Assembly: GCF_004349055.1 (NCBI RefSeq)
Contig: NZ_SMKX01000023.1
Span: 1 to 64,000 of the forward strand
Length of the DNA: 64,000 nucleotides
Origin: Kribbella antibiotica
GTDB taxonomy: Bacteria; Actinomycetota; Actinomycetes; Propionibacteriales; Kribbellaceae
Direction: 5' to 3'
The translations under genes and the position numbers were made by a program. Every line of letters begins with the position of its first letter. The stretch's first letter is position 1. Under the pieces are notes generated by a model. That model saw only the letters and a program-made list of their open reading frames with translations. It ran no database searches and was not told the DNA's origin. This document shows positions 2,728 through 58,753 of this stretch, in pieces.

Positions 2728-2734
2728 GGTTCGC

Positions 2735-3703: not shown

Positions 3704-3704
3704 C

Positions 3705-4629: not shown

Positions 4630-4666
4630 CCCCGCCCCCGCCCCCCGTTCGGTGGGTGCAGACGTG

Positions 4667-4945
4667 CCCCATTTGGTGGGCTGACCCACCTGGTTGTGGG
4701 AGGGCCCACCGCATGCGGTTAGCCCACCCGCAACGGGATGGGCTGGCCCACGAAATGCCACCCGAGCCGATCCGCCGGTGAATCGCCCCGGCTGGTTGAG
4801 CCGCGTTCGTCCCCATTTGGTGGGCTGACCCACGGGAGTGTGGGTCAGCCCACCGCATGCGGTTAGCCCACCCGCAACGGGATGGGCTGGCCCACGAAAT
4901 GACGGCGGGACTTGGCCGGTACGGGATGGGCTGGCCCACGAAATG
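4667..4945. repeat. Palindromic intergenic repeat, two full copies and one half copy
   Basis: Copies of about 91 bp at 4667-4757 and 4811-4901, then a right-half copy at 4917-4945. Each full copy has imperfect inverted ends (CATTTGGTGGGCTGACCCAC against GATGGGCTGGCCCACGAAATG) and a perfect central palindrome CCGCATGCGG (4709-4718 and 4853-4862). It fills the gap of about 320 bp between the WhiB-like gene and the converging exchanger gene. No gene is supported here. Confidence 0.85.
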
Positions 4946-4950
4946 GGCGG

Positions 4951-6180
4951 TTAGGCGTCGACTAGCTCGCGCTGGGGCTCGGCCGGTACGGCGGGTTTGC
5001 GGAAGGGGGCTCGCAGGGTGGCGGCCAGGTGGTGGCGGTTTTGGATGGCCGCGATGACGGCCAGGACCAGGTAGATGGCGCTCAGGATGTAGCGGCCAGT
5101 TTGGCCCGGTACGGCGAATTGGATCGCGAACAGGCCGAGTAGGGTCCAGGCCGCCCAGCGGGGGAAGCGCAGGCTGAGGAGAATCGCGATACCGAGCAGG
5201 GTCTGCGTGGCGGTGAGCAGGAACTCTTCGATCTGCCGGCCGTCGAGGTGCAGGGCGGACGGGCCGCCGCCGAGGCCGTAGGCGATCGGGAGGCTGCCGA
5301 TCAGCAGGGTCCACTGGTTCACCTTGGCCGAGATCAGCAGGCCGAGCGCCGCGGCGCCCTTGCCGCGCCAGGCGAACAGGATCGCGATGATGAACTCCGG
5401 CGCCTCGGACGCCAGCGGCGCCAGCCACTGGACGAGCAGGAACTGGTCGATCCCGAGCGTGCGACCGCCCTGGACGAGCGAGTCGGCGAACGGCTCGGCC
5501 GACGCGAGGATCACCGCGGCCGAGACCGCGAACATCCCGATCACCACGATCCGCCGCGACCTGGTCGGCAGGCCGCCGATCCGAGCGGCCGGGCCGATCA
5601 GCTCCGGCTCCTCGTCGTGGCCGGAGAGGGCAGCGCGATACAGGTAGAAGGCGAAGAACGCGAGCAGCGCGATCCCGAGAATCAGGTGGATCTCGCCGGT
5701 CACCGGGATCACGAACGCGACCACACCGGCGATGGCGAGGAAACCGAGCTCGCGACGGTAGCCCGACTCGAGGACGAGCTCCTTCACCGTACGACGGCTG
5801 CGCCGGGAGGCGACGTACAGGCTGACCAGCACGACGCTCGACCAGCCGAGGCCGAGGAGTAACCGGTTCGACCCGGTCATGTTGGCGGCCGCGTACTGCA
5901 CGTAGTCGGGGTTGGAGCCGGCGGTGTGCGCGAAGTAGAGATCCACCGCGTACTCCGGGAGAACGGCGATCACGGCGAGCAGGGCGATCGCCAGACCACC
6001 GGAGATATCCATCTCCGCAGCCTCGGCCGCCCAGGCCAGCACGAACGACGCAGCCACGACCGCGACGCCGAAAATCAGGATCGAGACGAGGGCCGGCGGG
6101 TGGATGCCGGCCAGCCGCAGCGTGACGGCGGGAACCGCCACGAGCAGCAGCATCAGCACTGGGCGAAGCGCTCTGACCAT
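4951..6180 (-). CDS. Calcium/cation antiporter (CaCA superfamily), Na+/Ca2+ exchanger-like
   Basis: A 409-residue integral membrane protein with about ten hydrophobic segments in two homologous halves. The alpha-1 region reads LPEYAVDLYF then ANMTGSNRLLLG, and the alpha-2 region reads PLASEAPEFIIAILF then SAKVNQWTLLIGS. The acidic residues in each PE motif are the expected cation ligands. It should exchange Ca2+ or another divalent cation against H+ or Na+ across the cytoplasmic membrane. It is divergent from an ArsR-type regulator, with a 20-bp palindrome 26-45 nt upstream of this ATG. Ion specificity is inference only. Confidence 0.9.
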   Translation of the reverse strand: MVRALRPVLMLLLVAVPAVTLRLAGIHPPALVSILIFGVAVVAASFVLAWAAEAAEMDISGGLAIALLAVIAVLPEYAVDLYFAHTAGSNPDYVQYAAANMTGSNRLLLGLGWSSVVLVSLYVASRRSRRTVKELVLESGYRRELGFLAIAGVVAFVIPVTGEIHLILGIALLAFFAFYLYRAALSGHDEEPELIGPAARIGGLPTRSRRIVVIGMFAVSAAVILASAEPFADSLVQGGRTLGIDQFLLVQWLAPLASEAPEFIIAILFAWRGKGAAALGLLISAKVNQWTLLIGSLPIAYGLGGGPSALHLDGRQIEEFLLTATQTLLGIAILLSLRFPRWAAWTLLGLFAIQFAVPGQTGRYILSAIYLVLAVIAAIQNRHHLAATLRAPFRKPAVPAEPQRELVDA

Positions 6181-6205
6181 GCCTCCAGCGTGCCACCGTT
6201 TTGAT

Positions 6206-6225
6206 ACTTTCGCAATTGCGAAAGT
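6206..6225. promoter_or_regulatory. Perfect 20-bp palindromic operator (ArsR-type)
   Basis: ACTTTCGCAATTGCGAAAGT is a perfect inverted repeat in the 114-bp space between the exchanger and the ArsR gene. Its length and central AT match operators of winged-helix ArsR/SmtB repressors. A -10-like TATCAA for the exchanger overlaps the palindrome edge on the minus strand. Confidence 0.75.
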
Positions 6226-6294
6226 GTGAGACCGTCCTCACCTCGGCCCGGCGGCCTACTGTGCGGCCCGTTCAGCGGTCACAATGACTGCGCG

Positions 6295-6648
6295 ATGACG
6301 ACGTATCCCGAACCCACGAAGGCGCAGCTGGAATCCGCCGCCGGCACCTTCGCGATGCTGTCCGCCCCGGTGCGGCTGCATCTCGTGGCCCTGGCGGCCC
6401 AAGGCGAGTACGACGTCGGCACCCTGGCTGACCGCGTCGGCGTCAGTATCGCCACCGCCAGCCAGCACCTCGGCAAACTCCGCCTGGCCGGTGTCATCAC
6501 CGCCCGCCGCGAAGGCCGCCGGCACATCTACACCGTCGACGACCCGCACGTGCTCAACCTGGTCGACCAGATCTTCGAGCACATCGCCCCGGACGGCTCA
6601 CTCGCGCCCGACCCACCGCGTCGTACGAGGCCTCCGCACACCGACTAG
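6295..6648 (+). CDS. ArsR/SmtB-family transcriptional regulator, alpha-5-type metal site
   Basis: A 117-residue winged-helix repressor. The recognition region reads DVGTLADRVGVSIATASQHLGKLRLAGV, followed by the wing REGRRHIYT. There are no cysteines, so it is not an alpha-3 (ELCxCD) arsenic sensor. In the C-terminal helix D83, H85 and H96 match three of the four alpha-5 zinc/nickel/cobalt ligands of CzrA/NmtR-type sensors, and the fourth position is proline. The ATG at 6295 follows the family N-terminus; an upstream in-frame start would add unrelated sequence. Divergence from the exchanger across a perfect palindrome suggests it represses both genes until an effector, probably a metal, binds. 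Confidence 0.87.
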   Translation: MTTYPEPTKAQLESAAGTFAMLSAPVRLHLVALAAQGEYDVGTLADRVGVSIATASQHLGKLRLAGVITARREGRRHIYTVDDPHVLNLVDQIFEHIAPDGSLAPDPPRRTRPPHTD

Positions 6649-6662
6649 AGGCTCTGCACCTG

Positions 6663-7385
6663 CTAAAGGACGTGCCGCAGGTAGCGCTCGGGCGCTTCCA
6701 GGTACGCCTTCCAGTTCTGGACGAGCTGGAGGTCTGCCCACGCCGTACGGCGGATGCCCCACTCACCGACCTCCAGAATCGTCGCGCCGGGCAGGGCAGC
6801 GATGACGGGGGAGTGGGTCGCGCAGAGGACCTGCGAGCCGGCCTTGGCCAGCTGGTCGAGAACGCCGACGACCGCGAGGCTGCTGGAGAACGAGAGCGCC
6901 GACTCGGGTTCGTCGAGGCAGTAGAAGCCGTGCCGGGTGAAGCGGTCCTCGATCAGCGTGAGGAAGCTTTCGCCGTGGCTCATCTCGTGGAAGCGCGGGT
7001 CCTCGCGATACGGGCTCGGGTTCTTTTCCAGGTAGGTGTAGAAGCCGTGCATGGTCTCGGCGCGCAGGAAGAAGCCCGCGCGTTTGCCGCCGACGCCGCG
7101 CGTGAGCCGCAGCTCGTCGGACAGCGGTGACTCGGTCGCCCGAGTGGTCAGGCGAGCGCCGGTGGAGCCGCCCTCGGGGGACATGCCGAACGCGACGGCG
7201 ATCGCCTCGACCAGGGTGGACTTGCCTGCACCGTTCTCGCCGACGAGGAACGTCACACCGGGATCGAGGTCCAGGCCGTCGGTGAGCAACTGCCGGACGG
7301 CGGGGATGGTGTGCGGCCAGGACCCGGAGACACAAACGCCCTCCGCGGCGGCGATCCGGCGTACCGGGTGCGTGGCGAAGGGCAT
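6663..7385 (-). CDS. AAA-type ATPase with ABC-like nucleotide-binding domain
   Basis: A 240-residue soluble ATPase of the AAA_15/AAA_21 kind. Motifs in order are Walker A GENGAGKST, the signature-like MSHGESFL, Walker B FYCLDEPESALS and the switch histidine in ATHSP. The protein is only a nucleotide-binding head, with no membrane segments or long coiled coil, so it resembles stand-alone RecF/SMC-like ATPases rather than a transporter subunit. The substrate is unknown. On the minus strand TAGCTT lies 6 nt before the ATG with no Shine-Dalgarno sequence, suggesting a leaderless mRNA. Confidence 0.82.
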   Translation of the reverse strand: MPFATHPVRRIAAAEGVCVSGSWPHTIPAVRQLLTDGLDLDPGVTFLVGENGAGKSTLVEAIAVAFGMSPEGGSTGARLTTRATESPLSDELRLTRGVGGKRAGFFLRAETMHGFYTYLEKNPSPYREDPRFHEMSHGESFLTLIEDRFTRHGFYCLDEPESALSFSSSLAVVGVLDQLAKAGSQVLCATHSPVIAALPGATILEVGEWGIRRTAWADLQLVQNWKAYLEAPERYLRHVL

Positions 7386-7418
7386 TCGGTCAAGCTAGCA
7401 ACGGGCTCCGACAGAAAA

Positions 7419-7595
7419 CTAGTCGTCTTCGTCGTCCAGGCGCGCCAGCCAGGTGGCGAAGCGCTCGATCGGGGTCTCGAACTCTGGGTTCAGATCGACG
7501 AACTCCCGCAGCCGTTCGGCCACCCAGGCCAGCGAGACGTCTTCCTCGCCTCGCCGGCCCTCGAGTTCCTCGATCCCTCGGTCGGTGAAGTACAC
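7419..7595 (-). CDS. Small acidic protein, DUF6104-like, coupled to kgd
   Basis: A 58-residue protein starting VYFTDRGIEELEGRRGEEDV and ending RLDDEDD. It contains the helical stretch VSLAWVAERLREFVDLNPEF and is strongly acidic. The GTG start at 7595 lies one base after the kgd stop codon, so translation is very probably coupled to kgd. It resembles a short conserved actinobacterial protein that I recall as DUF6104 and as a usual kgd neighbour. A role in 2-oxoglutarate metabolism is inference from position only. Confidence 0.8.
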   Translation of the reverse strand: MYFTDRGIEELEGRRGEEDVSLAWVAERLREFVDLNPEFETPIERFATWLARLDDEDD

Positions 7596-7596
7596 G

Positions 7597-10500
7597 TCAG
7601 CTGAAGGCCTGCTTCAGCAGCGTCTGCTGCTCCGCCTGGTGCGCACCCATCGAACCGACCGAGGTCGCCGACATCGCCGGCCGGGAGACCCGGTAGAACG
7701 GCTTGCCGCCGAGGTGCTCGGTCAGGTTCAGCGCCATGAACGGCCACGGGCCCTGGTTCGCCGGCTCGTCCTGGACCCAGCGGATCTCAGTGACGTTCGG
7801 GTACTTCGCGATCTCGGCGGCGATCTCGGCGGCGGGCAGCGGGTAGAGCTGCTCGACCCGGATGATCGCCGTACTGATCTTGTCCGGCTCGACCTTCTTG
7901 CGCTCGGCGAGCAGGTCGTAGCTGATCCGGCCCGACGCCAGGATGACGCGCTCGACCGTTGCGGTGGTCGCCTCGGCCTCCTCGTCGTTGAGGACCGGCC
8001 GGAAGGTGCCGTGGGTGAGCTCCTCCGGCTGCGACACCGCCTCCTTGCGCCGCAGCAGCTGCTTCGGCGTGAAGACGATCATCGGGTTGTGCTCCTCGCC
8101 CAGCGTGTGCCGGCGCAGGAGGTGGAAGTACGACGCCGGTGTCGACGGCTGGGCCACGGTCATCGCGTCCTCGGCGCAGAGCGCCAGGAACCGCTCGATC
8201 CGCGCGGACGAGTGGTCCGGGCCCTGGCCCTCGTAGCCGTGCGGCAGCAGCAGCACGACGCCCGACTTCTGGCCCCACTTCGCCTCACCGGCCGAGATGT
8301 ACTCGTCGATGATCGACTGGGCGCCGTTCACGAAGTCACCGAACTGCGCCTCCCACAGGGTGAGCGCGTCCGGCCGGGCCACCGAGTAGCCGTACTCGAA
8401 GCCGAGGGCGGCGTACTCGCTGAGCAGCGAGTCGTAGACGTAGAAGTTCGCCTGGTTCTCGTCCAGGTTCTGCAGCGGGACGTAGTCCTGCCCGTTGACC
8501 CGGTCGATGATCGCGGCGAACCGCTGGACGAACGTGCCGCGGCGGCTGTCCTGGCCGGCGAGCCGGACCGGACGACCGGCGAGCAGCAGCGAACCGAGCG
8601 CCGTCATCTCCGCCGAGGCCCAGTCGATCGGGCCCTGGGTGATCGCGGCGGCCCGGCGCTGCAGCTGCGGCAGCACCTTCGGGTGCACGGTGAAGCCCTC
8701 CGGCAGCGTGGTGTACGCGTCGGCGATCTTCTTCAGCACCTCGGGCGTGGTCGCGGTCGCGTCCGGACCCTGCGGCTTGTCCGGGTAGTCCGGGACGGTG
8801 ATGTACGGCGCCGGGGTGTCCGGCTGGCTCTTCGCCTCGCGAACCTCGGTGAAGACCCGCTCGAGGCGCTGCTGGAAGTCCCGCATCGCCTGCTCGGCCT
8901 CTTCGACCGTGATGTCGCCACGGCCGATCAGGGCCTCGGTGTAGAGCTTGCGGACCGAGCGCTTCTGCTCGATCAGGTCGTACATCAGCGGCTGGGTGAA
9001 CGACGGGTCGTCACCCTCGTTGTGACCGCGGCGGCGGTAGCAGACCAGGTCGATGACGACGTCCTTGTTGAACGCCTGGCGGTACTCGAAGGCCAGGTCG
9101 GCGACCCGGACACACGCCTCGGGGTCGTCGCCGTTCACGTGGAAGATCGGTGCCTGGACCATCCGCGCGACGTCGGTGCAGTACATCGACGAGCGCGACG
9201 AGGCCGGCGAGGTGGTGAAACCGACCTGGTTGTTGACGATCACGTGCACGGTGCCACCGGTGCGGTAGCCGCGCAGCTGGGACAGGTTCAGCGTCTCGGC
9301 CACCACGCCCTGACCGGCGAAGGCCGCGTCACCGTGGACCAGGATCGGCAGCACCGGGAAGGCTGCGCCGCGGTCCAGGATGTCCTGCTTGGCCCGGACG
9401 ATGCCCTCGAGGACCGGGTCGACGGTCTCCAGGTGCGACGGGTTGGCCGCGACCGACACCTTGATCTTGTCGCCGAACTCGGAGACGAACTCGCCCTCCG
9501 CGCCCAGGTGGTACTTGACGTCGCCGGAGCCCTGCACGGTCCGCGGGTCGATGTTGCCGTCGAACTCACGGAAGATCTGCCCGTAGGACTTGCCGACGAT
9601 GTTGGCCAGCACGTTCAGGCGGCCACGGTGCGCCATACCGATGACGACCTCGTCCAGACCGGCGCCGGCCGCCTCCTCGCAGAGCTCGTCGAGCAGCGGG
9701 ATGGTGGTCTCGCCACCCTCGAGCGAGAAGCGCTTCTGGCCGACGTACTTGGTCTGCAGGAAGGTCTCGAACGCCTCGGCCTCGTTCAGCTTGGCCAGGA
9801 TCCGGAGCTGCTCCTCGCGCGGCGGCTTGGTGTGCGGCCGCTCGACCCGGGTCTGCAGCCACTTGCGCTGCTCGGGGTCCTGGATGTGCATGTACTCGAT
9901 ACCGGTGGTCCGGCAGTACGAGTCGCGCAGGATGCCGAGGATCTCGCGCAGCTTCATGAACCGGCGGTCGCCACCGAAGGAGCCGGTCGCGAACTCGCGG
10001 TCCAGGTCCCACAGCGTCAGGCCGTGGGTCGCGACGTCGAGGTCGGGGTGACTGCGCTGCTTGTACTCCAGCGGGTCGGTGTCGGCCATGATGTGGCCGC
10101 GCACCCGGAAGGCGTGGATCAGCTCGAGGATCCGGGCCTGCTTGTTGATGTCCTCTTCGTGGCTGTGCGGGAGGTCCGTGGCCCAGCGGATCGGCTCGTA
10201 CGGGATCCGCAGGCTCTGGAAGATCTCGTCGTAGAAACCCTCCTGGCCGAGCAGCAGCTGGTGGATCCGGCGCAGGAACTCACCCGACTGGGCGCCCTGG
10301 ATGATCCGGTGGTCGTACGTCGAGGTGAGCGTCATGACCTTGCTCACCGCGAGCTTGGCCATCGTCTCCTCGGCCGCACCCTGGTACTCGGTCGGGTACT
10401 CCATCGCGCCGACGCCGATGATGCAGCCCTGGCCGGTCATCAGCCGCGGCACCGAGTGCTGCGTACCGATGGTGCCCGGGTTGGTCAGGCTGATCGTGGT

Positions 10501-48608: not shown

Positions 48609-49109
48609 CTACTTGTACTCCGCGTCGATTTCCGCGTCGAGCTCGGCCTTGCGGGCTACCCAGCGTTCGCTGAGGCCTTTGACCTCGCCGCTGATGAAGT
48701 CGATGAAGGCCAGGGAGATCCGCACTCGGTAGTGGGCGGGGGTGCCTTCGCCGGAGGCGTCGAGGACCTTGCGCAGCGATGCCGACCAGCGGAGCAGCGA
48801 CTGGTCCTCGGTCATCATGGTCTGGTACCAGGCGTCGTCCTGGACGACGTAGACGTCGCGGCGGCTGCCGGGCTCGCGTTCGCGGGTGGCCAGGCGGAGC
48901 TGGAGCAGGTAGTTGACCGCGCCGGAGACGGCGGCGGGGCTGGCCTGGAGCTGGTCGGACAGCTCGGCGGCGGTCAGCCGGCCGTCCTCGCTGGACAGGA
49001 TGGCGGAGAAGGCCCGGCCGGCCATCCGGGGCCAGCCCGTGTCGGCCAGCAGGTTGCCGAACTGCTCGGCGTACCGCTTGACGGCCTCGTCGTCGCGTTG
49101 TGCACTCAC
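48609..49109 (-). CDS. GbsR/MarR-type transcriptional regulator
   Basis: A 166-residue winged-helix protein. The MarR-like DNA-binding part reads GRLTAAELSDQLQASPAAVSGAVNYLLQLRLATREREPGSRRD (helix-turn-helix and wing); the C-terminus is helical. It is divergent from a two-gene ABC exporter, which it probably represses. GTG at 49109 or 49133 are possible starts; the shorter is chosen conservatively. The short gap contains an inverted repeat. Confidence 0.85.
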   Translation of the reverse strand: MSAQRDDEAVKRYAEQFGNLLADTGWPRMAGRAFSAILSSEDGRLTAAELSDQLQASPAAVSGAVNYLLQLRLATREREPGSRRDVYVVQDDAWYQTMMTEDQSLLRWSASLRKVLDASGEGTPAHYRVRISLAFIDFISGEVKGLSERWVARKAELDAEIDAEYK

Positions 49110-49146
49110 CGGCCCATCATCCCTTCCCGGCACGCTCGTTTCGAAG

Positions 49147-49164
49147 ATTCACAAACTTCTGAAT
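49147..49164. promoter_or_regulatory. Operator candidate between regulator and exporter
   Basis: ATTCA-N8-TGAAT lies 38-55 nt from the GbsR/MarR start and 20-37 nt from the exporter ATG, in the only AT-rich stretch of the gap. Confidence 0.45.
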
Positions 49165-49183
49165 GAAGTGTACGTTATGAAAC

Positions 49184-50083
49184 ATGACATCAGCCATCGT
49201 GGTCTCCGGACTGCACAAGTCCTATGGCGCAACGCACGCTCTCGACGGTCTCGACCTGGAGGTCACCACCGGCGAGGTGCACGGATTCCTGGGCCCGAAC
49301 GGCGCCGGGAAGTCCACCACCATCCGGGTGCTGCTCGGACTGCTGCGCGGTGACGAGGGCGACGTGTCGCTGCTCGGCGGCGACCCGTGGCGCGACGCGG
49401 CCCAGCTGCATCGCCGGCTGGCCTACGTCCCCGGTGACGTCAACCTCTGGCCGAACCTGACCGGCGGCGAGGTGATTGACCTGCTCGGCCGGCTGCGCGG
49501 CGGGCTGGACCCGAAGAAGCGCGACGACCTGCTGCGCCGCTTCGACCTGGATCCGACCAAGAAGGGCCGCACCTACTCCAAGGGCAACCGTCAGAAGGTC
49601 GCACTGGTCGCGGCACTCGCCTCCGACGTCGAGCTGCTCATCCTGGACGAGCCAACCTCCGGACTGGATCCCCTGATGGAGGAGGTGTTCCGCCAGTGCA
49701 TCGAGGAGGAGCGACAGCGCGACCGTACCGTCCTGCTGTCCAGCCACATCCTCTCCGAGGTCGAGGCGCTCTGCGACCGGATCAGCATCATCCGCCGCGG
49801 CAAGGTGGTCGAGACCGGCACGATGTCCGACCTGCGCCACCTGACGCGCACCTCCATCCAGGCCGAGCTATCTGCCGCCCCAAACGGCCTTGCGTCGTTG
49901 CCAGGCGTGCACTCACTGGATGTCGAGGGCAACCGAGTCCACTGCGAGGTGGACACCGCCCAGCTCGACGCAGTGATGCGAGAGCTCGCGGCCAGTGGCA
50001 TCAAGAGTCTGGTGGCACAGCCCCCGACGCTGGAGGAGCTGTTCCTGCGCCACTACGAGGACGACTCGGTGGCCGCCTCATGA
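49184..50083 (+). CDS. ABC exporter ATP-binding protein (drug-resistance/CcmA type)
   Basis: A 299-residue ATPase. Walker A is GPNGAGKST, the signature is degenerate ([15 protein letters not shown], with K in place of the second G of LSGGQ), Walker B is [12 protein letters not shown] and the switch His is in SSHILSE. A C-terminal DrrA-like extension follows ([16 protein letters not shown]). YSKGNRQK-type signatures are common in actinobacterial ABC-2 exporters. It overlaps the permease by 4 nt. Confidence 0.92.
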
Positions 50084-51678
50084 GCGACTTCGTAGGTACT
50101 GGGACGCTGGTCCGCCTCGCTCTGCGACGTGACCGCGTTCTGATCCCCACCTGGATCGCAGTGTTCGTCGTGATGGCCGCAGGCTCGGCCCAGGCCACTA
50201 TGGATCTCTACACCGATGTCGCATCCCGCGTAGAAGCAGCCCGTACGACGAACGCGTCGCCGGCCCTGGTGTCGCTCTACGGCCGCATTTTCGACGAGAC
50301 CTCGCTCGGGGAGCTCTCGCTGTTCAAGCTGACCGCATTCGGCGCTGCACTGGTCGGACTGCTCGCATCGATCCTCGTGGTCCGCCATACCCGCGCCGAA
50401 GAGGAGTCCGGTCGCCTAGAGCTTCTGAGCGCCGGAGTGCTCGGCCGGTACGCCGCTCTGACCGCAGCCCTGCTCGTATCGACCGGAACCGTTGTAGTGC
50501 TGGGTTTGCTGACCGCACTGGCCCTCATCGGCCTAGGCCTACCAGCAGCCGGCTCTTTCGCGTTCGGACTCATCTGGATCACCGCCGGCCTCTCCTTCGC
50601 CGGCGTCGGCGCACTAGTCGCCCAGCTCACCGAGGGCGCCCGTACCGCCAACGGCTTCACCGCCATTGTCCTAGGCGTCTCCTACGTCCTGCGCGCAATC
50701 GGTGACTCCTCATCCGACGGCAAGTCCGAGTGGGTCTCCTGGCTGTCACCCATCGGCTGGTCCCAACAGATCCGAGCCTTCGCCGGAGACCGGTACGTCG
50801 TAGTCCTCCTGCCCCTGGCATTCCTGGCTTTGTTAGTCACCGGAGCACTGGCCCTCATCCGCCGCCGCGATGTCGGTGCAGGCCTGGTCCGCCCTCGCCC
50901 CGGCCCCGCTGTCGGCGCACCGTCACTGCGCTCACCCCTGGCCCTGGCCTGGCGACTACACCGAGGCTCCTTGTACGGCTGGGGTTTCGCCTTCCTCCTC
51001 CTTGGCCTCCTGGTCGGCAACATCGCCAGCAACGTCGACGGCTTTGTCACCAGCGACAGCGCCCGCGAGATGGTCCAGAAGCTAGGCGGCGTCCAAGCCA
51101 TCACCGACGCCTTCCTCTCCACCGAGATGGGCATGGTCGGCCTGCTGGCCTCGGCGTACGGCATCCAAGCCGCCCTCCGCCTCCGCTCCGAAGAGACAGC
51201 CCTAAGAGCCGAACCCCTCCTGGCCACCGGCGTCACCCGCACTCGATGGCTAGCCAGCCACGTCCTGATGGCCCTCCTAGGCACCGGAGCCCTCATCATG
51301 ATCGCCGGACTAGGCTCCGGCCTCTCCAGCGGCGCATCCCTGGGCAACGTAGGCCACCAAGTCCCCCGCATGCTCGCCGCAGCCGCAGTCCAACTCCCAG
51401 CCATCTGGCTGGTAACAGCCCTAGTAGTAGCCCTCTTCGGCCTGGCCCCCAAGCTGGTAACCGCCTCCTGGGCCCTCTACGGCCTCTTCCTCCTCATAGG
51501 CCAGTTCGGCGCCCTCTTCAACCTCCCCCAAGCCGTCATCAACCTGAGCCCCTACGGCCACACCCCCCGCCTCCCCGGCGGCACCTTCACCCTCACTCCC
51601 GTCCTAGCCCTAACAGCCATAGCCGCAGCCCTCCTAGCCGCCGGCCTAACCACCTTCCGCCGCCGAGACATCGGCTAA
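50080..51678 (+). CDS. ABC-2 type exporter permease, two-half fusion
   Basis: A 532-residue membrane protein with about twelve transmembrane segments in two homologous halves, as in polyketide or antibiotic exporter permeases. The first half has [25 protein letters not shown] and the second the related [25 protein letters not shown]. Substrate unknown. The last 300 bases are markedly C-rich and use CTA and ATA codons rare elsewhere in the window. Starts ATGA-overlapped with the ATPase. Confidence 0.9.
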
Positions 51679-51701
51679 CCCATTGCAACAAAGTGCAAAA
51701 C

Positions 51702-51766
51702 AGTCCTCCCCAGTCCCCACCCCCTGTTAGGCTCCCGCCGCTCGGGGTGAGCACCAGGGGAGGACT
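51702..51766 (+). promoter_or_regulatory. Perfect 10-bp stem pairing with the Shine-Dalgarno of the next gene
   Basis: AGTCCTCCCC (51702-51711) is perfectly complementary to GGGGAGGACT (51757-51766), which contains the GGGAGGA ribosome binding site 8 nt before the ATG at 51773. A -10-like TAGGCT (51728-51733) inside the loop means the 5' arm may be transcribed only from promoters farther upstream. Confidence 0.5.
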
Positions 51767-51772
51767 TTCCAG

Positions 51773-54700
51773 ATGAGTACGCAACGCCGCCGCATGCCAT
51801 TCCGCAAGGCGGTCACGGCACTATTGACCGCCGTACTGGCGGTGTCCCTCCTGCAAGCTCCAGAAGCCACCGCAGCCAAGCCGACACCACCACCAACGGC
51901 CACAACGAAGCCGGTACCTTCGAGCAAGACCAAGGCTGCCAAGGCGACCGAGGCCGACTGCGGTGGCGCGGTGGCCTTCGGCACGATCACTACGTGCGAG
52001 GCGATCGAGGTCGACACGACCGACACCTTCACGATCACCACCACGGCGGCGAACGAGTCGCTGCTGCTCCGAGCCGATATGCCGTCGAGGTCGTACGTCA
52101 ACGTCACGGTGAACGGCGACAACACCAGCTGTTACGTCTCCGGCCGGAGACGCTGTGATCTGGGTGCAGCCGGTGAGTACACGCTGACGGCACGGAACTA
52201 TGGCTCCGAAGTCGCCTCCTACACGCTGTTCGTGGTCTCGATCTTCCACGGCGCCTGCACAACCCTGACCGACTCGGACCTCTCGCCGGCTGCGGCTCCT
52301 CGACCCACGGAGGGCGCACGTGGGCTGGTCTCGACCTGCTTCACCTTCTCCGGCGCTCCCGGCGACGTTATGGGCGTCGGTGACGCCACCGGCGGGGTCA
52401 TCTACAACGCAGAGGGCGGCGAACCTTGCCACCTGCACAGTGGCGCCCGGACCTGTGAGCTGAGCGGACCTGGGCCCTACCGGGCCTGGATGACCGGCGT
52501 GAACGGATCCGACAGCTCCGTCACAACGATCTTTCCGTTCATGTTGTTCCGGTTGACCAACCCCACCGCATGCCCCGCGCTGCCGTTGGCTCCGTTCGGA
52601 GACGCCACCGGCTCGGTCGCGACCGGCCAACTGCGGACCGGCACGACCACCTGCCGCTCGATCACGACCACCTCGCCCGGGCTGCTCTCTCTCCGGCTCG
52701 GCGTCGAGGACGACAGCAGCAACATCGTCAACCAGCGGGAGCTGTACACACAGGCCGGCCAACGCGTCTGGTGCGACGAGTCGTGCTCGGTCCCGGCGGG
52801 CAGCTACACGGTCCTGCTGACGAGCCTGGCCGGTATCAAGACCTATGACTTCGCGCTGGCGGTCAACGACCTCGCGGCAACGGCCGGTTGCGCACCGGAG
52901 ATCGAGCCGCGGTGGGACACGCCGGCTCCGACCAGGACTCTCCAATCGCCGGTTCAGCTCGACTGTCAACCGATCGCAGGCAAGTCGGGCGATCGAATCC
53001 TGGTGCGGCTGCAAGGGCCGGATGTGGAAGGCACGAGCCGGATTGTCGGCCCGAGCGGAGCGACAGTCTGCAACCAGGACTCACAGCACGATGGGTGTGT
53101 TCTGCAGGGTACTGGGCCGTTCCGTGTGCTGAGCACGCGAAACTACTACTTCAAGGGTTCCTACGTCCTCGACATCGGGCGGCTGAACGCTCCGGTCGGC
53201 TGTGCGCCGGTCGCCGTGACCAGCTTCGGTGCTCCCGCGCCGGCCGCGGGTGGCCGATGCCGCGAGCTCACGGTGACCGCTGCCGGTCGCTACCGGGTCG
53301 ACGCGTCGACGGCGTACAGCTATGGAAACGGCGGCCGCGGTGCCTACAAGACCGACGGTCTTGAGGGCTGCACCAGCCTCTTCTCCTGCCAGCTCCAGCC
53401 TGGCAAGTACAGCCTGCTCGCCCAGGCGAACGAGCGGGTCGCGGTCTTCCCCTTCTCCAGTACGGCGGGTTGTGTCGCCCAGCCGGCCGACACCTACGCC
53501 GCGAAGACCGGGACGTTGCCCGTCGGTACGCAGTTCGACTGCTTGAGTCTGCGCGCAGCGGCCGGAAGCCGCGTTGTCGTCGCCGAACCGCTCGGAAAGA
53601 CGGTCACCACCGGCTGGGTCGTGGATGCGGCCGGCGCCGAGATGTGTGCCTGGGGACCGAACTTCAGCGGCGGTTCCGATGCGCCGAGACTCTGCAGACT
53701 GACCGGGAAGGCGCCGTTCCGCGCGGTCCTGCACCGGGGCCCTTGGAAGGGTGCGGACAACTACCAGCTCGCTGTGGTGGCTGCCGATCCGAACCCAGGC
53801 TGCAAGGCCTTCCCGCAGAGCACCTTCTCCGCGCCGGGTGGCACGGTTGTGGCCCTGCGGCCGGATCGGTTTATGGAATGCCTTGCGGTACCTGCCAACG
53901 GTCACTCGGCGGCCGAGACGGTCGAGCACAGCCGCACGGGGGCCATCGGCACGGCTACCACGCTGGCGCTGTCGGTCGGCTCGGAAGAGTGGTGTGAGGG
54001 GAGCGCGGCGGCGGCGTCGTTCGTGACCTGCTCGTACCCCGCCGGTAAGGCCGCTGTTGTGCTGGTGCTCGGGTCTTCCGACACAGCAAGCCACCGGATC
54101 GCCCGGCGCGACGTTACCGCCACCGCTCCCGGCTGTACGCCGGTGAGCTCGACTGTGGTCGGGAGTGTTTCCGGATCCGGAACAATCCCGGACGCCGCGA
54201 CCGTCCGTTGTTTCAAGGTGACGGGAGCGGCGACCGACCAGTTCGTCGCCAACGTCCGCAACGCCGACGACAGCATCCGCCTCGATGTGCACAACACGGC
54301 CGGTGAGCTGATCTGCCGGTCGACCTACGAGGAGCGCTGCTCGTTGCGCGGTTCGGCCGGCTACCAGGTGCTGGCGTGGAACGACCCCACGATCGGGGCC
54401 GGTGGGCCCTTCACCGTGGAGACGTACCGGGTCGCCACCGCCGCGGGTCCTGCGGCCGAGTGCACGAAGGTCAACTCGGCGTACGGGTTCGGGCCGATCA
54501 CCGGAGAGCTCACGAAGAGCAAGCCGAGCAGTTGCGTGACGTTCCCGATGGCGAAGGACACGACGCTTCGTGGACACGCCCGCAACCAGACGGCCGGTGG
54601 AACGAACCCGACCATCACCTCCTTCGGCCCGACGCCGTCCGACACCTGTGAGTCGTTCTCGGGCGACGACGGCGACTTTGGCTGCGATGGACGCGAGACG

Positions 54701-55633
54701 CAGTCCTGGAATGCCGTTGTGCTGCTGAACGTCCCCGAGCAGCCGGACCCGGCGGCGCTGAAGTACACCATGGATGCGTCTTGTGAGACGCCGCTGTGTG
54801 GTGGAGCGACCTTCGGGGTCAGCAGCGTTGCTCCTGCCAGTGCTGCAACCGGCGCGTCGGCCACAGTGACTGTCAAGGGGAAGTCGCTGCATCTGAAGGA
54901 CGTGGTGACGTTCAAGGCAGCCGGAAAGCCGGATCTGGTCGGTGTGGTGAAGTCGGTTTCGGCGGACCGGACTGCGGCCACGGTGACAGTCGACTTGAAG
55001 GGTGCTGCGGCTGGTGCTCGGAACCTGACGGTCGATTCGTTCGCCGGTGGGTCGGCGACGTTGGCGAGTGCGTTCACGGTGACCCCGCCGGCGTTGGCGA
55101 ACACCAAGGCGCCGGCTCTGGTTGCGCCGGTGCAGGTGGGGGCTGCCGTGAAGGTCGCGGTCGGGACCTGGTCGCCGGCGGCCACGTCCTACACGTATCA
55201 GTGGCGGGACAACGGGGCAGCGATTCGTGGTGCCGGCGCGGCTACCTATACGCCTGCTGCGGCGATGTTGGAGCACAAGCTCAGCGTCACGGTGACAGCT
55301 GCGCGCGCCGGATCGACCAGTACTGCCGTGACGACGGCTGCGGTCGTGGTGGCGGCTGGGGTGGCGCCTAAGGCTTCCAAAGGCCCGGTGGTGACGGGGA
55401 CCGTCAAGGTGGGCAAAACCGTGACGGCCTCGGCTGGGACTTGGGCACCGACCTGTACGGCGGTGAAGTTCCAGTGGTACTCGGCTGGCAAGGCGGTTGC
55501 CGGTGGGACCAAGGCGTCGCTGGTGTTGACCACCGCAATGGGCAAGAAGGCGCTGTACGTCGCTGCGACGTGTGTGCGGACTGGGCATGCGTCGGGGGTG
55601 GCGTCGACCAAGGCAGTGACTGTGGCTGCTTGA
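51773..55633 (+). CDS. Large secreted cysteine-rich repeat protein with C-terminal Ig-like domains
   Basis: A 1286-residue exported protein of unknown function. Signal peptide about 1-35 (ATAA). After a Pro/Thr/Lys linker come about nine modules of 90-115 residues (residues about 62-1010), each with four Cys in the order C-x(12-25)-C-x(30-45)-C-x(4-14)-C and a following G-x-Y/F strand. Modules begin at CGGAVAFG, CTTLTDSD, CPALPLAP, CAPEIEPR, CAPVAVTS, CVAQPADT, CKAFPQST, CTPVSSTV and CTKVNSAY. The C-terminus has an IPT/TIG-like domain (VSSVAPASAATGASATVTVKG) and two Ig-like repeats (APVQVGAAVKVAVGTWSP, GTVKVGKTVTASAGTWAP). There is no sortase motif or membrane anchor, so it is probably released or bound non-covalently. 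Confidence 0.85.
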   Translation: MSTQRRRMPFRKAVTALLTAVLAVSLLQAPEATAAKPTPPPTATTKPVPSSKTKAAKATEADCGGAVAFGTITTCEAIEVDTTDTFTITTTAANESLLLRADMPSRSYVNVTVNGDNTSCYVSGRRRCDLGAAGEYTLTARNYGSEVASYTLFVVSIFHGACTTLTDSDLSPAAAPRPTEGARGLVSTCFTFSGAPGDVMGVGDATGGVIYNAEGGEPCHLHSGARTCELSGPGPYRAWMTGVNGSDSSVTTIFPFMLFRLTNPTACPALPLAPFGDATGSVATGQLRTGTTTCRSITTTSPGLLSLRLGVEDDSSNIVNQRELYTQAGQRVWCDESCSVPAGSYTVLLTSLAGIKTYDFALAVNDLAATAGCAPEIEPRWDTPAPTRTLQSPVQLDCQPIAGKSGDRILVRLQGPDVEGTSRIVGPSGATVCNQDSQHDGCVLQGTGPFRVLSTRNYYFKGSYVLDIGRLNAPVGCAPVAVTSFGAPAPAAGGRCRELTVTAAGRYRVDASTAYSYGNGGRGAYKTDGLEGCTSLFSCQLQPGKYSLLAQANERVAVFPFSSTAGCVAQPADTYAAKTGTLPVGTQFDCLSLRAAAGSRVVVAEPLGKTVTTGWVVDAAGAEMCAWGPNFSGGSDAPRLCRLTGKAPFRAVLHRGPWKGADNYQLAVVAADPNPGCKAFPQSTFSAPGGTVVALRPDRFMECLAVPANGHSAAETVEHSRTGAIGTATTLALSVGSEEWCEGSAAAASFVTCSYPAGKAAVVLVLGSSDTASHRIARRDVTATAPGCTPVSSTVVGSVSGSGTIPDAATVRCFKVTGAATDQFVANVRNADDSIRLDVHNTAGELICRSTYEERCSLRGSAGYQVLAWNDPTIGAGGPFTVETYRVATAAGPAAECTKVNSAYGFGPITGELTKSKPSSCVTFPMAKDTTLRGHARNQTAGGTNPTITSFGPTPSDTCESFSGDDGDFGCDGRETQSWNAVVLLNVPEQPDPAALKYTMDASCETPLCGGATFGVSSVAPASAATGASATVTVKGKSLHLKDVVTFKAAGKPDLVGVVKSVSADRTAATVTVDLKGAAAGARNLTVDSFAGGSATLASAFTVTPPALANTKAPALVAPVQVGAAVKVAVGTWSPAATSYTYQWRDNGAAIRGAGAATYTPAAAMLEHKLSVTVTAARAGSTSTAVTTAAVVVAAGVAPKASKGPVVTGTVKVGKTVTASAGTWAPTCTAVKFQWYSAGKAVAGGTKASLVLTTAMGKKALYVAATCVRTGHASGVASTKAVTVAA

Positions 55634-55648
55634 AGTAGTGCGTAGGTG

Positions 55649-55675
55649 AGGCCCGCCCGGTTGCCGGGCGGGCCT
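55649..55675 (+). terminator. Rho-independent terminator
   Basis: AGGCCCGCCCGG (55649-55660) and CCGGGCGGGCCT (55664-55675) form a perfect 12-bp stem with a TTG loop, followed by TGCTGTTT. It lies 15 nt after the stop of the repeat protein. Confidence 0.87.
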
Positions 55676-55682
55676 TGCTGTT

Positions 55683-55688
55683 TACGAT
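55683..55688 (+). promoter_or_regulatory. -10 hexamer of probable leaderless promoter of the PPOX-cob operon
   Basis: TACGAT lies 6 nt before the GTG at 55695 and directly after the terminator; no Shine-Dalgarno sequence is present. Confidence 0.45.
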
Positions 55689-55694
55689 CGCTGG

Positions 55695-56078
55695 GTGTTG
55701 TGGACTGAGCGGTTGGTGGAGTTCTGGAGTGAGCGGCACCTGGCGGTGCTGAGCACGGTCCGGGGGGATGGGTCGGTCCATGCGACGCCGGTGGGGGTGA
55801 CTATCGACCCGGAGTCGGGGCTGGCTCGGGTGATCTGCTCGGGGACCTCGTACAAGGCTCGGGCGATTCGGCGGCTGGGGACTGCGGCGGTTGCGGTGAC
55901 GCAGGTGGACGGGCGGCGGTGGAGCACGCTTGAGGGGCTTGCGGTGGTGGTGGACGAGCCGGAGCGGGTGCGGGACGCGGAGCAGCGGTATGCGCGGCGG
56001 TACAAGGAGCCGCGGGTGAATCCGCAGCGGGTCGTTCTGGAGATCACTGTGACGAAGGTGCTCGGCAATGGGGGCTGA
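55695..56078 (+). CDS. PPOX-class F420- or flavin-binding protein (split barrel)
   Basis: A 127-residue split-barrel protein of the pyridoxamine-phosphate-oxidase-like family that binds F420 or FMN in actinobacteria. The core is HLAVLSTVRGDGSVHATPVGVTID, SGTSYKARAIRRLG and VVVDEPERVRDAEQRYARRY. Substrate unknown. Its 3' end overlaps cobL by 11 nt, so it is transcribed with cobalamin genes and may supply a reductase-type function there; that link is inference. Confidence 0.82.
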   Translation: MLWTERLVEFWSERHLAVLSTVRGDGSVHATPVGVTIDPESGLARVICSGTSYKARAIRRLGTAAVAVTQVDGRRWSTLEGLAVVVDEPERVRDAEQRYARRYKEPRVNPQRVVLEITVTKVLGNGG

Positions 56079-57300
56079 GGTCGTAGTCGTCGGCATCGGT
56101 GCGGACGGGTACGACGGTCTGGCGCCGGCTGCGCGCGAGGCGATCGCAGCGGCTGATGTGCTGATGGGAAGCACCAGGCAGCTCGGTCTGGTCCCGGCCG
56201 GTACGGCGGAACGCCGGGCTTGGCCGTCGCCACTGTCGGAGGCTTTGCCGGGGTTGCTGGCTGAGTACCGCGGTCGGCGGGTGTGTGTGCTGGCCAGCGG
56301 GGATCCGACGTTCCATGGGATCGGTACGACGTTGGTGCGGTTGCTGGGGGCAAGTGCTGTCCGGGTGATCCCGCATCCGTCGAGTGTTTCGCTCGCATGT
56401 GCGCGGCTGGGGTGGGCGCAGGAGCAGGTGCAGGTCGTCAGCCTGGTGGGGCGCCCGACTTCACTGGTGCACCCGCACGTCCAGCCGGGGTCGCGGTTCC
56501 TGGTTCTGAGCTGGGGTGCGCGGACTCCGGGCGAGGTGGCCGACCTGCTGGTTGCCCGGGGCTACGGTGCGAGTGAGTTCATCGTGCTGGAGCAGCTGGG
56601 CGGTCCGGCGGAACGCGTGACCCGTACGACGGCTGCTGAGTGGACTGGTGAGGTAGACCCCCTCAACGTCATCGCGGTGCGCTGTGCGGACGGACCGGTG
56701 CTGTCGACTGCGCCCGGATTGCCGGATGCGGCGTACGAGAGTGATGGGCAACTGACGAAGCGTGAGGTGCGCGCAGTGACGTTGTCACGGCTCGCACCGG
56801 TGCCAGGGCAACTGCTGTGGGACATCGGCGGGGGAGCGGGCAGCATCGGGATCGAGTGGTCGCGGCACCACCCGACCTGTCGCGCTATCGCGATCGAACG
56901 CGACGAAGAGCGAGTACGACGGCTCGAGCGGAACGTGGCCGCGCTTGGGGCGAACGTGACAGTGGTGCACGGCGCGGCCCCTGAGGTGCTGGAGTCGTTC
57001 AAGCCACAGACGCAAGAGTCGCCCGGGTTGCCGGGGTGGGCTGACGAACCGGACGCGATCTTCATCGGCGGCGGTGCGACGGCCGAGGGAATGGTTGAGG
57101 CGTGCTGGGCAGCGCTGCGGCCCGGCGGGCGCCTGGTGATGAACGGCGTGACGCTGGAGACCGAGGTGCTGATTGCGCGTTGGTACCAGGAGCTAGGCGG
57201 CGACTTGGTGCGGATGGATGTGCAGCGGGCCTCAGCGGTTGGTGGGATGACCGGATGGCGTCCTGCGATGCCGGTGACGATTTGGAGCGTGACGAAGTGA
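56068..57300 (+). CDS. cobL: Precorrin-6Y C5,15-methyltransferase (decarboxylating) CobL
   Basis: A 410-residue fusion of CbiE- and CbiT-type domains, full length for CobL. The N-terminal CbiE half has [27 protein letters not shown] and [14 protein letters not shown]. The C-terminal CbiT half has the SAM motif [16 protein letters not shown] and [16 protein letters not shown]. It methylates C5 and C15 and removes the acetate side-chain carboxyl in aerobic cobalamin synthesis. It precedes cobM with a 4-nt overlap. Confidence 0.95.
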
Positions 57301-58037
57301 CCGTGCATTTCATCGGCGCTGGACCGGGTGCTGCCGACCTGATCACCGTGCGCGGGCGTGACCTGATCACGGCGTCGCCGGTCTGCCTGTACGCCGGTGC
57401 GCTGGTGCCGGTTGAGCTCCTTGAGCACTGCCCGGTCGGGGCGCACAAGGTGGACACGGCCAACCTCGACCTCGACCAGATCATCGCTGAGCTGTCCGCT
57501 GCGCACGCTGCTGGTCTCGACGTTGCGCGACTGCACTCCGGCGACCCGTCAGTCTTCAGCGCGATGGCTGAGCAGATGCGCCGGCTCGACGCGCTCAACA
57601 TCCCGTACGACGTCACACCCGGCGTACCGGCGTATGCCGCGGCCGCAGCGTCCCTCAACCGGGAGCTGACCGTGCCGGAGGTAGGGCAGACCGTCATCCT
57701 GACCCGCATCGGCGGCCGGGCGTCAGCCATGCCGGCCAGTGAGGACCTGGCGACCCTCGGTGCGAGCCAGGCGACGCTGGTGCTGCATCTGGCCGTGCAG
57801 CAGATCGATCGCGTGGTCAGCGAGCTCCTGCCGAGCTATGGCGCGGACTGTCCGGTCGCAGTGGTGGCACGTGCTTCACGGGACGACGAGGAGGTGCTGC
57901 GCGGGACACTGGCCGACATTGCGGAGCAGGTGCAGGCGGCGGGCATTCGCCGTACGGCGGTCATTGTGGTCGGGAAGGTGCTGGCGGCAACCGAGTTCCG
58001 CGACAGCCACTTGTACTCGACTACTCGGGAACGATGA
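57297..58037 (+). CDS. cobM: Precorrin-4 C11-methyltransferase CobM
   Basis: A 246-residue SAM-dependent tetrapyrrole methyltransferase. It has the N-terminal [48 protein letters not shown] and [15 protein letters not shown] signatures. The GTG at 57297 (GTGA overlap with cobL) is chosen because the VHFIGAGPG strand must be near the N-terminus; longer in-frame starts read cobL sequence. Confidence 0.95.
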
Positions 58038-58753
58038 AGGTCCTGCTGCTCGGCGGTACGGGCGAGGCCCGCGAGCTGGCCGGACAGTTGGCTGACTTCG
58101 AGGTGGTGTCGTCGCTGGCCGGTCGGACGCGGGAGCTGCGGCTGCCTGATGGTGAGGTCCGTGTTGGCGGTTTCGGTGGCGCATCCGGTCTGGCGCAGTG
58201 GCTGACTGAGAACCAGGTGGATGCCGTGGTCGACGCTACCCATCCGTTTGCCGCGACGATGACCGAGCACGCGGTGGCGGCCACCCGCGCGGTCGGAGTA
58301 CCGCTGCTGGTGCTGCGCCGACCGGGCTGGGGCGCGGGGCCGGGAGACGACTGGCACTGGGTAGAGAGTGCGGATCAGGCGGCTTCCCTTCTCCCGATGC
58401 TGGGGCGGCGCGTGTTTCTCACGATCGGCAGGCAGGGGCTGGACGCGTTCGCCGGCACTGGTCTGTGGACGCTGGCGCGCTGCGTGGACCCGCCCGAGCC
58501 AACGCCGGCCTGGTGCACGCTGCTGCTCGACCGCGGCCCGTACGTCGTCGATGCCGAACTCGAACTGTTCCGCGAGCATCACATCGATGTGCTCGTCACC
58601 AAGGACAGCGGTGGTCCGCAGACTGCGGCGAAGCTCACCGCTGCTCGCGAACTTCACGTCCCGGTTGTCCTCATCCGGAGACCGCCCGCACCCAACGGCG
58701 TAGCCATCGTTGAGTCGGTGGCCGCTGCGGCCAACTGGCTGCGTAGCTACTGA
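58034..58753 (+). CDS. cobK: Precorrin-6A reductase CobK
   Basis: A 239-residue NADPH-dependent reductase acting between CobM/CobF and CobL. Typical features are [14 protein letters not shown], the [16 protein letters not shown] motif and the C-terminal [15 protein letters not shown]. It overlaps cobM by 4 nt. Other cobalamin genes are not in the window, so the pathway must be completed elsewhere. The 3' end overlaps the convergent TetR gene by 7 nt. Confidence 0.93.

Follow-up and report, generated by a model that had tools for sequence, protein, structure and literature searches.

Layout of the gene and its product

The window, a stretch of 64,000 nucleotides from Kribbella antibiotica, carries on its forward strand an open reading frame at 51773–55633 that encodes a protein of 1286 amino acids, with the same boundaries as in the first-pass annotation. 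The ATG at 51773 is preceded by GGGGAGG with a gap of 9 nt, and a promoter and terminator scan gave no signal exceeding shuffles. All features described here lie on the forward strand. Residues 1–35 (51773..51877) form a probable signal peptide with an Arg-rich start, a hydrophobic core and an Ala-rich end; the translation, read by eye, bears out the earlier description of a signal-peptide-like start, from which we infer secretion. A Pro/Thr/Lys-rich linker, evident from the sequence, follows at residues 36–58 (51878..51946), and the first block of the structural model described below, which starts at residue 55 in the end of this linker, has a pLDDT of 51.

The protein contains 40 Cys residues, 36 of them in nine C1-C2-C3-C4 sets, two in a hinge and two in the last Ig-like repeat. 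Cut at C1, the sets delimit nine modules of 90–111 residues each, in agreement with the roughly nine four-cysteine modules proposed at first. Module 1 (51947..52243; Cys 63, 75, 120 and 128, C1 being listed first here and below) and module 8 (54122..54448; Cys 788, 813, 848 and 856) were assigned by Cys pattern, homology and structure match, and module 2 (52244..52558; Cys 162, 189, 219 and 228) and module 6 (53459..53788; Cys 567, 590, 625 and 641) by Cys pattern and homology. Module 3 (52559..52876; Cys 267, 294, 334 and 338) occupies the position with the profile nearest to that of the PPC domain, and module 5 (53189..53458; Cys 477, 496, 533 and 539) rests on Cys pattern, homology and PPC profile comparison. 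Module 4 (52877..53188; Cys 373, 398, 433 and 442) was also modelled singly, with a pLDDT of 90.7. Module 7 (53789..54121; Cys 677, 703, 741 and 753) has a structure match and scores lowest in the leave-position-out test, and module 9 (54449..54769; Cys 897, 921, 959 and 971) is lowest when position profiles are compared with one another.

The order of modules followed by IPT- and Ig-like domains stands as first described. A two-Cys hinge (54770..54808), recognized by Cys conservation, precedes the IPT-like domain; its Cys 1004 and 1009 are C in 27/27 and 24/27 of the homologue rows having a letter. The IPT/TIG-like domain (54809..55087) was assigned from TIG matches in homologues (Pfam TIG in 9 of 42 rows at E ≤ 0.01, best 5.1e-5, the window row not among them) and for the remainder by position and reading. 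The gene ends with two Ig-like repeats and its stop codon (55088..55633), the second repeat holding Cys 1228 and 1267. These repeats were assigned from the sequence and by phmmer, which matched the tail to 'Decoration protein' chains (5lxk_A, residues 1118–1194, E 0.0018; 8zvi_a, E 0.0026), and the tail has numerous matches across actinomycete genomes. With NCBIfam, ZirU_fam matched 6 of the 42 homologue rows (best 1.2e-6) and the choice-of-anchor Z repeat two (best 1.5e-4); the ZirU match of the window protein is sub-threshold (E 1.5) and is located in its Ig-like tail. Pfam and NCBIfam scans found no catalytic domain in the window protein, and none was found in the 16 full-length relatives scanned.

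Module homology, cysteines and predicted fold

Identity among the nine modules is 9–28%. All nine nevertheless outscored 200 of 200 Cys-fixed shuffles (12.6–54.0 bits versus shuffle maxima of 8.7–16.4) when scored by profiles whose training took in only the other eight positions and no Kribbella row, module 7 being the lowest (12.6 bits, shuffle maximum 10.9). The modules are thus homologous beyond their cysteines alone, and the initial view of an old repeat that has diverged strongly and is maintained by its cysteines is upheld. In profile-profile comparison all 28 pairs of positions 1–8 reached a probability of at least 90, and position 9 scored 14–91.

The cysteines are also conserved in homologues, as the first-pass annotation had expected, so that its other refuting outcome, loss of the cysteines in homologues, did not arise: with Cys counted per half, both pairs are present in 361 of the 371 modules. 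Eight complete modules have C1-C2 and lack both C3 and C4, the rest are two truncated pieces of L074, and a lone partner Cys occurs in none of the 371. An earlier, stricter count gave CCCC in 333/371, with 24 others failing at C1 only; nearly all of these are module 1, whose C1-C2 spacing is shorter. The columns of the 42-row alignment agree. Those of modules 3–7 have C in 39–42 of 41–42 lettered rows, the exception being C334 (2/42), a residue that we take to be shifted; in modules 8 and 9 the figure is 26/26 or 27/27. The poorer columns of modules 1 and 2 (C128, 22/38; C189, 23/36; C219, 22/25; C228, 22/28) probably reflect the absence of these modules from many rows. Each module most likely holds two disulfides, C1-C2 and C3-C4.

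An AF2 model of residues 55–1015, built with 42 rows, has a mean pLDDT of 88.7 and a pTM of 0.76. The top entries of the structural aligner for this whole model were the ColG collagen-binding domain s3b (1nqj; Z 12.5, 2.0 Å over 95 residues), PliG (4dzg; Z 11.4, 3.1 Å over 101) and a PPC domain (5sv5; Z 11.2, 2.4 Å over 101). For module 4 alone, the best 11 matches were all collagen-binding/PPC or PliG entries (Z 8.1–9.6). The whole-model match covers modules 1, 7 and 8 well, and the highest matches there are of the same type; modules 2, 3, 5, 6 and 9 are assigned this fold because they are homologous to modules 1, 4, 7 and 8. Other jelly rolls scored as well, namely SIDT1/SIDT2 (up to Z 10.7), p24 GOLD and enterotoxin C-domains (about 8.5) with the whole model and GOLD (Z 7.8) with module 4. 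Structure matches were modest overall. Foldseek gave no match below E 0.001 for module 4, and its first match for a single module was PliG (E 3.7e-3); with the whole model it placed CUB chains on top. A search of a viral structure library gave E values down to 3.3e-10, yet with TM-scores of at most 0.19, the top row being annotated 'CUB domain' and coming from an uncultured phage.

The fold is tied to PPC by sequence profiles as well. Pfam PPC matched 6 of the 42 homologue rows at E ≤ 0.01, and two of the homologues, L128 (28.3 bits) and L125 (27.6 bits), exceed the Pfam cut-off of 25.9 bits with a stretch that passes alone and sits within a four-Cys module; L120, another of the six, is below the cut-off and has its best stretch on the IPT region. 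In hhalign comparisons with PPC, controlled by 60 column shuffles for positions 3–5 only, position 3 scored 29.7 (shuffle maximum 12.3), position 5 scored 27.4 (14.1) and position 4 scored 13.7 (12.0). The scores of positions 2, 4, 7, 8 and 9 (10.3–16.0) are uninformative alone because an IPT control compared with PPC reaches 16.3, and these positions are linked to PPC via other positions. The mixed alignment A3, holding 100 of 150 candidate modules, matched PPC weakly (probability 42). A scan of 100 single modules returned one PPC match (E 0.041) and 25 other families with one or two members each, which we read as chance, as we do the 12 matches of the profile to sequences of solved structures (best E 0.076; titin, beta-lactamase inhibitory protein and a ribosomal protein among them). 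The window protein has no PPC match in Pfam at E ≤ 10, in a search that filters out most matches with E above about 0.1, and is therefore classed as a PPC-type variant only, not as a member of PF04151.

Taken on predicted structure and sequence profiles, the module is a disulfide variant of the PPC/collagen-binding/PliG jelly roll. The first-pass annotation had not recognized the module, a claim that fails because of the match to a PPC-type family, the very result named beforehand as refuting it. A module of no known kind is ruled out by the structure matches and by the passage of L128 and L125 over the PPC cut-off.

Distribution, module order and gene neighbourhood

The protein belongs to an unnamed family, spread over five actinomycete families, whose members usually carry between seven and nine modules. 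Neither Pfam nor NCBIfam yielded a model covering the array of the window protein, and among the papers covered by a literature search, judged from titles and the starts of abstracts, none describes the family. Members on public plasmid records carry the unrelated names 'cell envelope integrity protein TolA' or 'Tat pathway signal protein', or lack a listed gene. In two genome groups, picked since a member had already been found there, the family occurs in 33/199 genomes of a large genus that is probably Streptomyces and in 47/200 genomes of another actinomycete family, so it is not rare where it occurs. Within the window's own genus, 4 of 37 genomes gave a match across the module region; in four more, G009, G021, G028 and G036, the match is limited to the hinge/IPT or Ig-like part. 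A tblastn search of phages with the window protein gave no match.

All nine window modules score highest with the profile of their own position, in profiles built without Kribbella. Judged by such profiles, the module order is fixed and common to distant actinomycetes, with the proviso that, for the 38 non-Kribbella rows of A2, position assignment is circular, as the profiles were trained on them; outside this training lie the four Kribbella proteins, L143, L149, L123, L126, L151, both L152 proteins, the 837-aa L148 protein, L065, L068 and the L074 pieces. The end blocks of the array are gained or lost mostly in pairs. Support for an alternation between odd and even modules is only moderate: counting the real one, 6 of the 126 ways of splitting the labels reach the observed contrast. 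The shared order suggests a conserved, uncharacterised surface or matrix protein. The unnamed family in five actinomycete families, its conserved module order, the paired changes at its ends and the lack of any catalytic domain found are new here.

Neighbouring genes, which the first-pass annotation had put forward as a check, yielded no conserved partner: no called gene type lies beside the family in more than 6 of 50 loci (L003 excluded). A looser count placed ABC ATPases at 12 loci, but these are common generally, and gene neighbourhood was dropped as evidence. The MarR/ABC-ATPase pair upstream of the Kribbella window gene also lies beside the gene in L069 (70% and 90%); it is absent from the K. 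sandramycini stretch compared (L002), with only a 30% ATPase match elsewhere. The window protein is 54% identical to its K. sandramycini counterpart, and three flanking genes are 78–82% identical.

Possible roles and relation to known systems

We favour, at a probability of roughly 60%, a secreted, non-enzymatic, multivalent binding scaffold of nine PPC-type modules in fixed order, probably associated with the envelope or matrix. The nine-module protein would be exported, each jelly roll would be locked by its two disulfides, the modules would display position-specific surfaces that together make a putative multivalent binder, and the IPT and Ig-like tail would space or anchor them outside the cell. 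Protein binding has been described for the PPC domains of protease E495 (PMC3327674), and collagen binding for a PPC-containing segment of a Grimontia collagenase (PMC6168687). We also count for this reading the relative L065 (1989 aa), which ends in SLH domains (39.6 bits versus a cut-off of 20.8) that point to the surface, and the divergence of the window protein (54%) relative to its flanking genes (78–82%). The adhesion, binding or inhibitory scaffold suggested at the outset stays the best guess. Going further, the family may comprise position-specialised secreted arrays that arose by an early two-module duplication, with nine positions each having its own surface and partner and an order fixed before several families diverged, as a bacterial counterpart of animal CUB arrays. 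We regard this extension as speculative and rather improbable; if true, one molecule would hold several different ligands.

The modules could instead be a passive stalk, a stiff, protease-resistant spacer that positions the C-terminal tail or an envelope layer. Numerous disulfide-locked modules with no catalytic domain found would suit such a role, as would the varied tails of relatives (SLH, DUF7619 or Ig-like repeats), but position-specific conservation across genera exceeds the demands on a spacer, and 16 f10 proteins stop at most 13 residues after module 7 with no tail to present, which leaves a mere spacer unlikely in our view. An array of PliG-like inhibitors that blocks the lysozymes, muramidases or proteases produced by competitors or predators, each position perhaps having its own target, draws on PliG, which ranks near the top by structural alignment for both models (Z 11.4 and 9.4) and heads the single-module Foldseek search. 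The same fold is common to collagen-binding and protease-associated domains, so inhibition is not singled out, and identity to PliG in structural alignments is 8–17%; we consider inhibition quite improbable.

Kinship with animal CUB proteins such as cubilin, making this a true bacterial CUB array, appears very improbable. CUB domains have two disulfides, C1-C2 and C3-C4, in about 110 residues, a pattern that the one proposed for the module resembles. The whole-model Foldseek search is headed by cubilin chain 3kq4_B (E 1.8e-8, with TM-scores of only 0.11/0.18) and has neuropilin, PCPE-1 and C1r/C1s entries within its first 50. The structural aligner, however, ranks collagen-binding, PPC and PliG entries highest, and no CUB entry is among the 50 matches listed for the whole model or for module 4, an absence that is not proof. 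Nor does a CUB chain occur among the 12 matches to solved-structure sequences, or CUB among the families shown in the single-module scan (25 of 26 shown) and the 42-row homologue scan. PF00431 was found in 0 of 118 genomes, that of the window included, in a search whose control was likewise silent everywhere.

The CUB arrays of cubilin and neuropilin consist of beta-sandwiches in tandem, each of about 110 residues and with disulfides, and the present array, with its predicted disulfides, resembles them in this; they differ in that no sequence link to them was seen in the lists obtained and PPC-type domains stand highest by structural alignment. PliG shares the predicted fold (4dy5 for module 4, 4dzg for the whole model), which is the only ground for the likeness; its solved entries are single chains of 107–114 residues, whereas the array is actinomycete and multi-module. 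The tandem jelly-roll N-terminal lobes of DeCLIC, which is present among our structural-aligner matches for the whole model and module 4, were placed with Tk-SP, a collagen-binding domain and PliG in a published Dali search; these lobes differ in belonging to an ion channel, with two of them per subunit, and the portion of the report consulted describes no multi-Cys array (PMC12664993).

The closest known relative is the PPC domain (PF04151): the predicted jelly roll is the same, the Pfam hits of L128 and L125 fall within a four-Cys module, and at positions 3 and 5 the profile scores exceed their shuffle controls. The array departs from it in its two conserved disulfides per module and its usual seven to nine modules. 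An acidic DxD-type motif, D.D[LVIFA], occurs in 34/371 modules versus 21/23 PPC domains (comparison set A5, 23 of 30 loci), and the stricter D.DL[YDFWA] in 3/371 versus 6/23. In E495 the motif includes residues required for protein binding (PMC3327674); as it is mostly missing, that binding mode is not transferable to the modules. The usual setting of PF04151 is C-terminal to a peptidase catalytic domain, and no peptidase was found in the array protein. A disulfide-locked PPC module with a fixed position code offers a handle on the putative ligands of these large secreted proteins, and takes PPC domains beyond their place as protease appendages, into stand-alone multi-module proteins.

Four-cysteine modules of the window protein

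The module-array ORF (51773-55633, + strand) encodes 1286 residues and carries a Shine-Dalgarno-like GGGGAGG nine bases 5' of its ATG; judged by eye, the N-terminus reads as a signal peptide. Thirty-six of its 40 cysteines form nine sets of four (C1-C4), in modules of 90-111 residues sharing 9-28% pairwise identity, with spacings of 19-27 (C1-C2), 30-45 (C2-C3) and 4-16 (C3-C4), module 1 being the outlier with a C1-C2 spacing of just 12. No direct DNA repeats of at least 30 bases were found within the gene. Using profiles from other positions that held no Kribbella row, all nine modules outscored 200 of 200 shuffles with fixed cysteines, module 7 by a narrow margin (12.6 vs 10.9 bits), therefore the modules are homologous beyond their cysteine pattern. 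This confirmed the nine-fold four-cysteine repeat described in the first-pass annotation.

Conservation of the cysteines in homologues, on which the same annotation depended, was also upheld. Across 42 aligned rows including the window protein, the cysteine columns of modules 3-7 are nearly invariant, with C334 as the sole exception, and those of modules 8-9 are cysteine wherever a row has a letter. Among 371 modules cut from 54 ORFs of the family, 361 have two cysteines in both halves (C1-C2 and C3-C4), eight complete modules lack both C3 and C4, and the remaining two are truncated pieces in locus L074; a lone partner cysteine was seen in none of the 371. All eight losses lie in three relatives from the window's own order, namely L071 and L065 (modules 1, 3 and 5 each) and L074 (two modules). 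As C3 and C4 are lost together while C1-C2 is retained, the pattern points to C1-C2 and C3-C4 disulfide pairing.

Fold of the module

An AlphaFold2 model of residues 55-1015, built from the 42 rows, is almost entirely beta (mean pLDDT 88.7, pTM 0.76). Its top structural-aligner match, in a list covering mostly modules 1, 7 and 8, was collagen-binding domain s3b of ColG (1nqj; Z 12.5 with 2.0 A over 95 residues). The lysozyme inhibitor PliG (4dzg, Z 11.4) and a pre-peptidase C-terminal (PPC) domain (5sv5, Z 11.2) came shortly after it, and the list also contained other jelly rolls (SIDT1/SIDT2, Z up to 10.7). Module 4 modelled alone (pLDDT 90.7) gave collagen-binding/PPC domains or PliG in all 11 best rows (Z 8.1-9.6), with a GOLD domain next (Z 7.8); for these predicted models the Z values are modest. 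Foldseek returned no match below E 0.001 for a single module, the best being PliG (3.7e-3), and its top match to the whole model was a cubilin (CUB) chain (1.8e-8). In the viral structure library, the whole model first matched BFVD A0A6J5NMN5, an uncultured-phage protein that carries the annotation 'CUB domain' (TM-score no higher than 0.16, E 3.3e-10).

No Pfam or NCBIfam family matched the modules of the window protein. Pfam PPC (PF04151) was matched at E <= 0.01 in 6 of the 42 rows and in five of ten homologues checked singly, two of them above the curated cut-off of 25.9 bits (L128, 28.3; L125, 27.6) with the matching stretch within the first four-cysteine module, and three under it (L118, L120 and L127; the best stretch in L120 is the IPT region). 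Against a profile of PPC domains gathered from related genomes, positions 3 and 5 scored 29.7 and 27.4, compared with 12.3 and 14.1 for the best of 60 column shuffles and 10.7 and 10.9 for an IPT control. Positions 1 and 6 reached 21.7 and 23.0, while positions 2, 4, 7, 8 and 9 (10.3-16.0) did not exceed PPC versus IPT (16.3) and are tied to PPC via the other positions, since the position profiles align mutually (28 of 28 pairs among positions 1-8 at probability of at least 90; position 9 at 14-91). Structure matches, PPC profile scores and inter-position alignments thus place the module, unrecognised in the first-pass annotation, among the PPC-type jelly rolls, here supplemented by disulfides.

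Module order, distribution and genomic context

Each of the nine window modules scored highest with its own-position profile built from other genera. Position assignment is partly circular; the result persists in rows outside training, such as the window protein, L003, L069, L143 and L149 with all nine, plus L123 and L126. Over the 54 ORFs, the string 123456789 occurs in three Kribbella and four family f10 proteins, 1234567 in 16 f10 proteins, 3456789 in 19 proteins of genus g39, one Kribbella and one f10 protein, 6789 in two g39 proteins, and 34567 and 5679 once each among f10 proteins; six f2/f3 ORFs (L065, L068, L071, L075 and two from L074) give irregular or incomplete strings. These strings suggest that blocks 1-2 and 8-9 were mostly gained or lost as pairs. 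The positions fall into an odd and an even group, a division that is moderately supported (6 of 126 splits do equally well). In L074 (10183-11479), whose gene is split across two ORFs, two duplicated stretches (300 nt at 99% and 116 nt at 92% identity) have their copies spaced by 681 and 677 nt, corresponding to about 227 residues or two modules, and the building block is likely a two-module unit.

In the nine-module form a two-cysteine hinge comes after the modules and leads into an IPT-like domain, matched by Pfam TIG in 9 of the 42 rows; beyond it the tails vary: Ig-like repeats are present in Kribbella, some f10 and g39 proteins and absent in others. The 16 f10 proteins of the 1234567 type stop at most 13 residues past module 7. 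DUF7619 occurs in L071, L065 and L074, and the 1989-aa L065 protein (2550-8516) ends in SLH domains above cut-off, suggesting surface anchoring. The tails of two relatives (L123, 8565-11162; L129, 6331-10935) consist of two and three LDTRDG/MDTREG-type repeats of about 125 residues, read from sequence, that had no convincing Pfam match.

A whole-protein query matched the module region in 4 of 37 Kribbella genomes (its own, G003, G008 and G024), the K. sandramycini protein being identical to that in G003; the Kribbella proteins form a single clade (support 99/97). Of 293 genomes from the order, 9 carried the family by the module profile (E <= 1e-5), as did 3 of the 396 drawn from across the phylum; both counts include the window's own genome. 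In two groups picked because a member was known there, it was found in 33 of 199 genomes (genus of G399) and 47 of 200 genomes in 14 of 44 genera (family of G496). All 23 plasmid records matching the G399 member are Streptomyces, therefore that genus is probably Streptomyces. Five families (f1, f2, f3, f6 and f10) have the array in total, and phage records gave no match to the window protein. Two f10 genomes carry two family genes adjacently on the same strand (L148, 8328-13347; L152, 7042-12853). Streptomyces megaplasmid members (L184, 7635-10964, S. clavuligerus pSCL4; L185, 7878-11114) are annotated 'cell envelope integrity protein TolA' and 'Tat pathway signal protein'; the TolA annotation looks wrong. 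The family, with its fixed order and disulfide pattern, appears to be without a name in the libraries searched.

Co-occurrence with neighbouring genes, proposed in the first-pass annotation, was examined, and no gene constantly adjoins the family loci. In K. sandramycini the same neighbours flank the gene (window 46652-57300 vs L002 5870-13342), but the array protein is 54% identical compared with 78%, 82% and 80% for hydrolase-, pyridoxamine-oxidase- and CobL-like genes (names read from ORFs), a fast divergence that fits an exposed protein, as one may expect. The upstream MarR/ABC-ATPase pair (48609-50083) is missing from the corresponding site in K. sandramycini but adjoins the gene in the Kribbella locus L069. 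Downstream ORFs (56068-58753) resemble cobalamin-biosynthesis genes (CobL, CobM and CobK types).

Putative function of the array

We favor a secreted, putative multivalent binding scaffold, at a probability of roughly 0.6. No catalytic domain was detected when 16 relatives were scanned over their full length. A passive stalk, with the modules as mere spacers, is unlikely. A true CUB array would agree with the cubilin match of the whole model; set against the PPC-type assignment, it is highly improbable. An array of inhibitors is a doubtful reading, prompted by PliG, which has the same fold and is a lysozyme inhibitor according to the titles of solved entries.

For the binding scaffold, parallels come from PPC domains: those of E495 bind protein substrates (PMC3327674) and that of Grimontia binds collagen (PMC6168687). 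The acidic E495-type motif is present in 34 of 371 modules versus 21 of 23 PPC domains, and because it is mostly absent from the modules, carry-over of the E495 binding site is not supported. Altogether, the array module shows a familiar fold in new guise.
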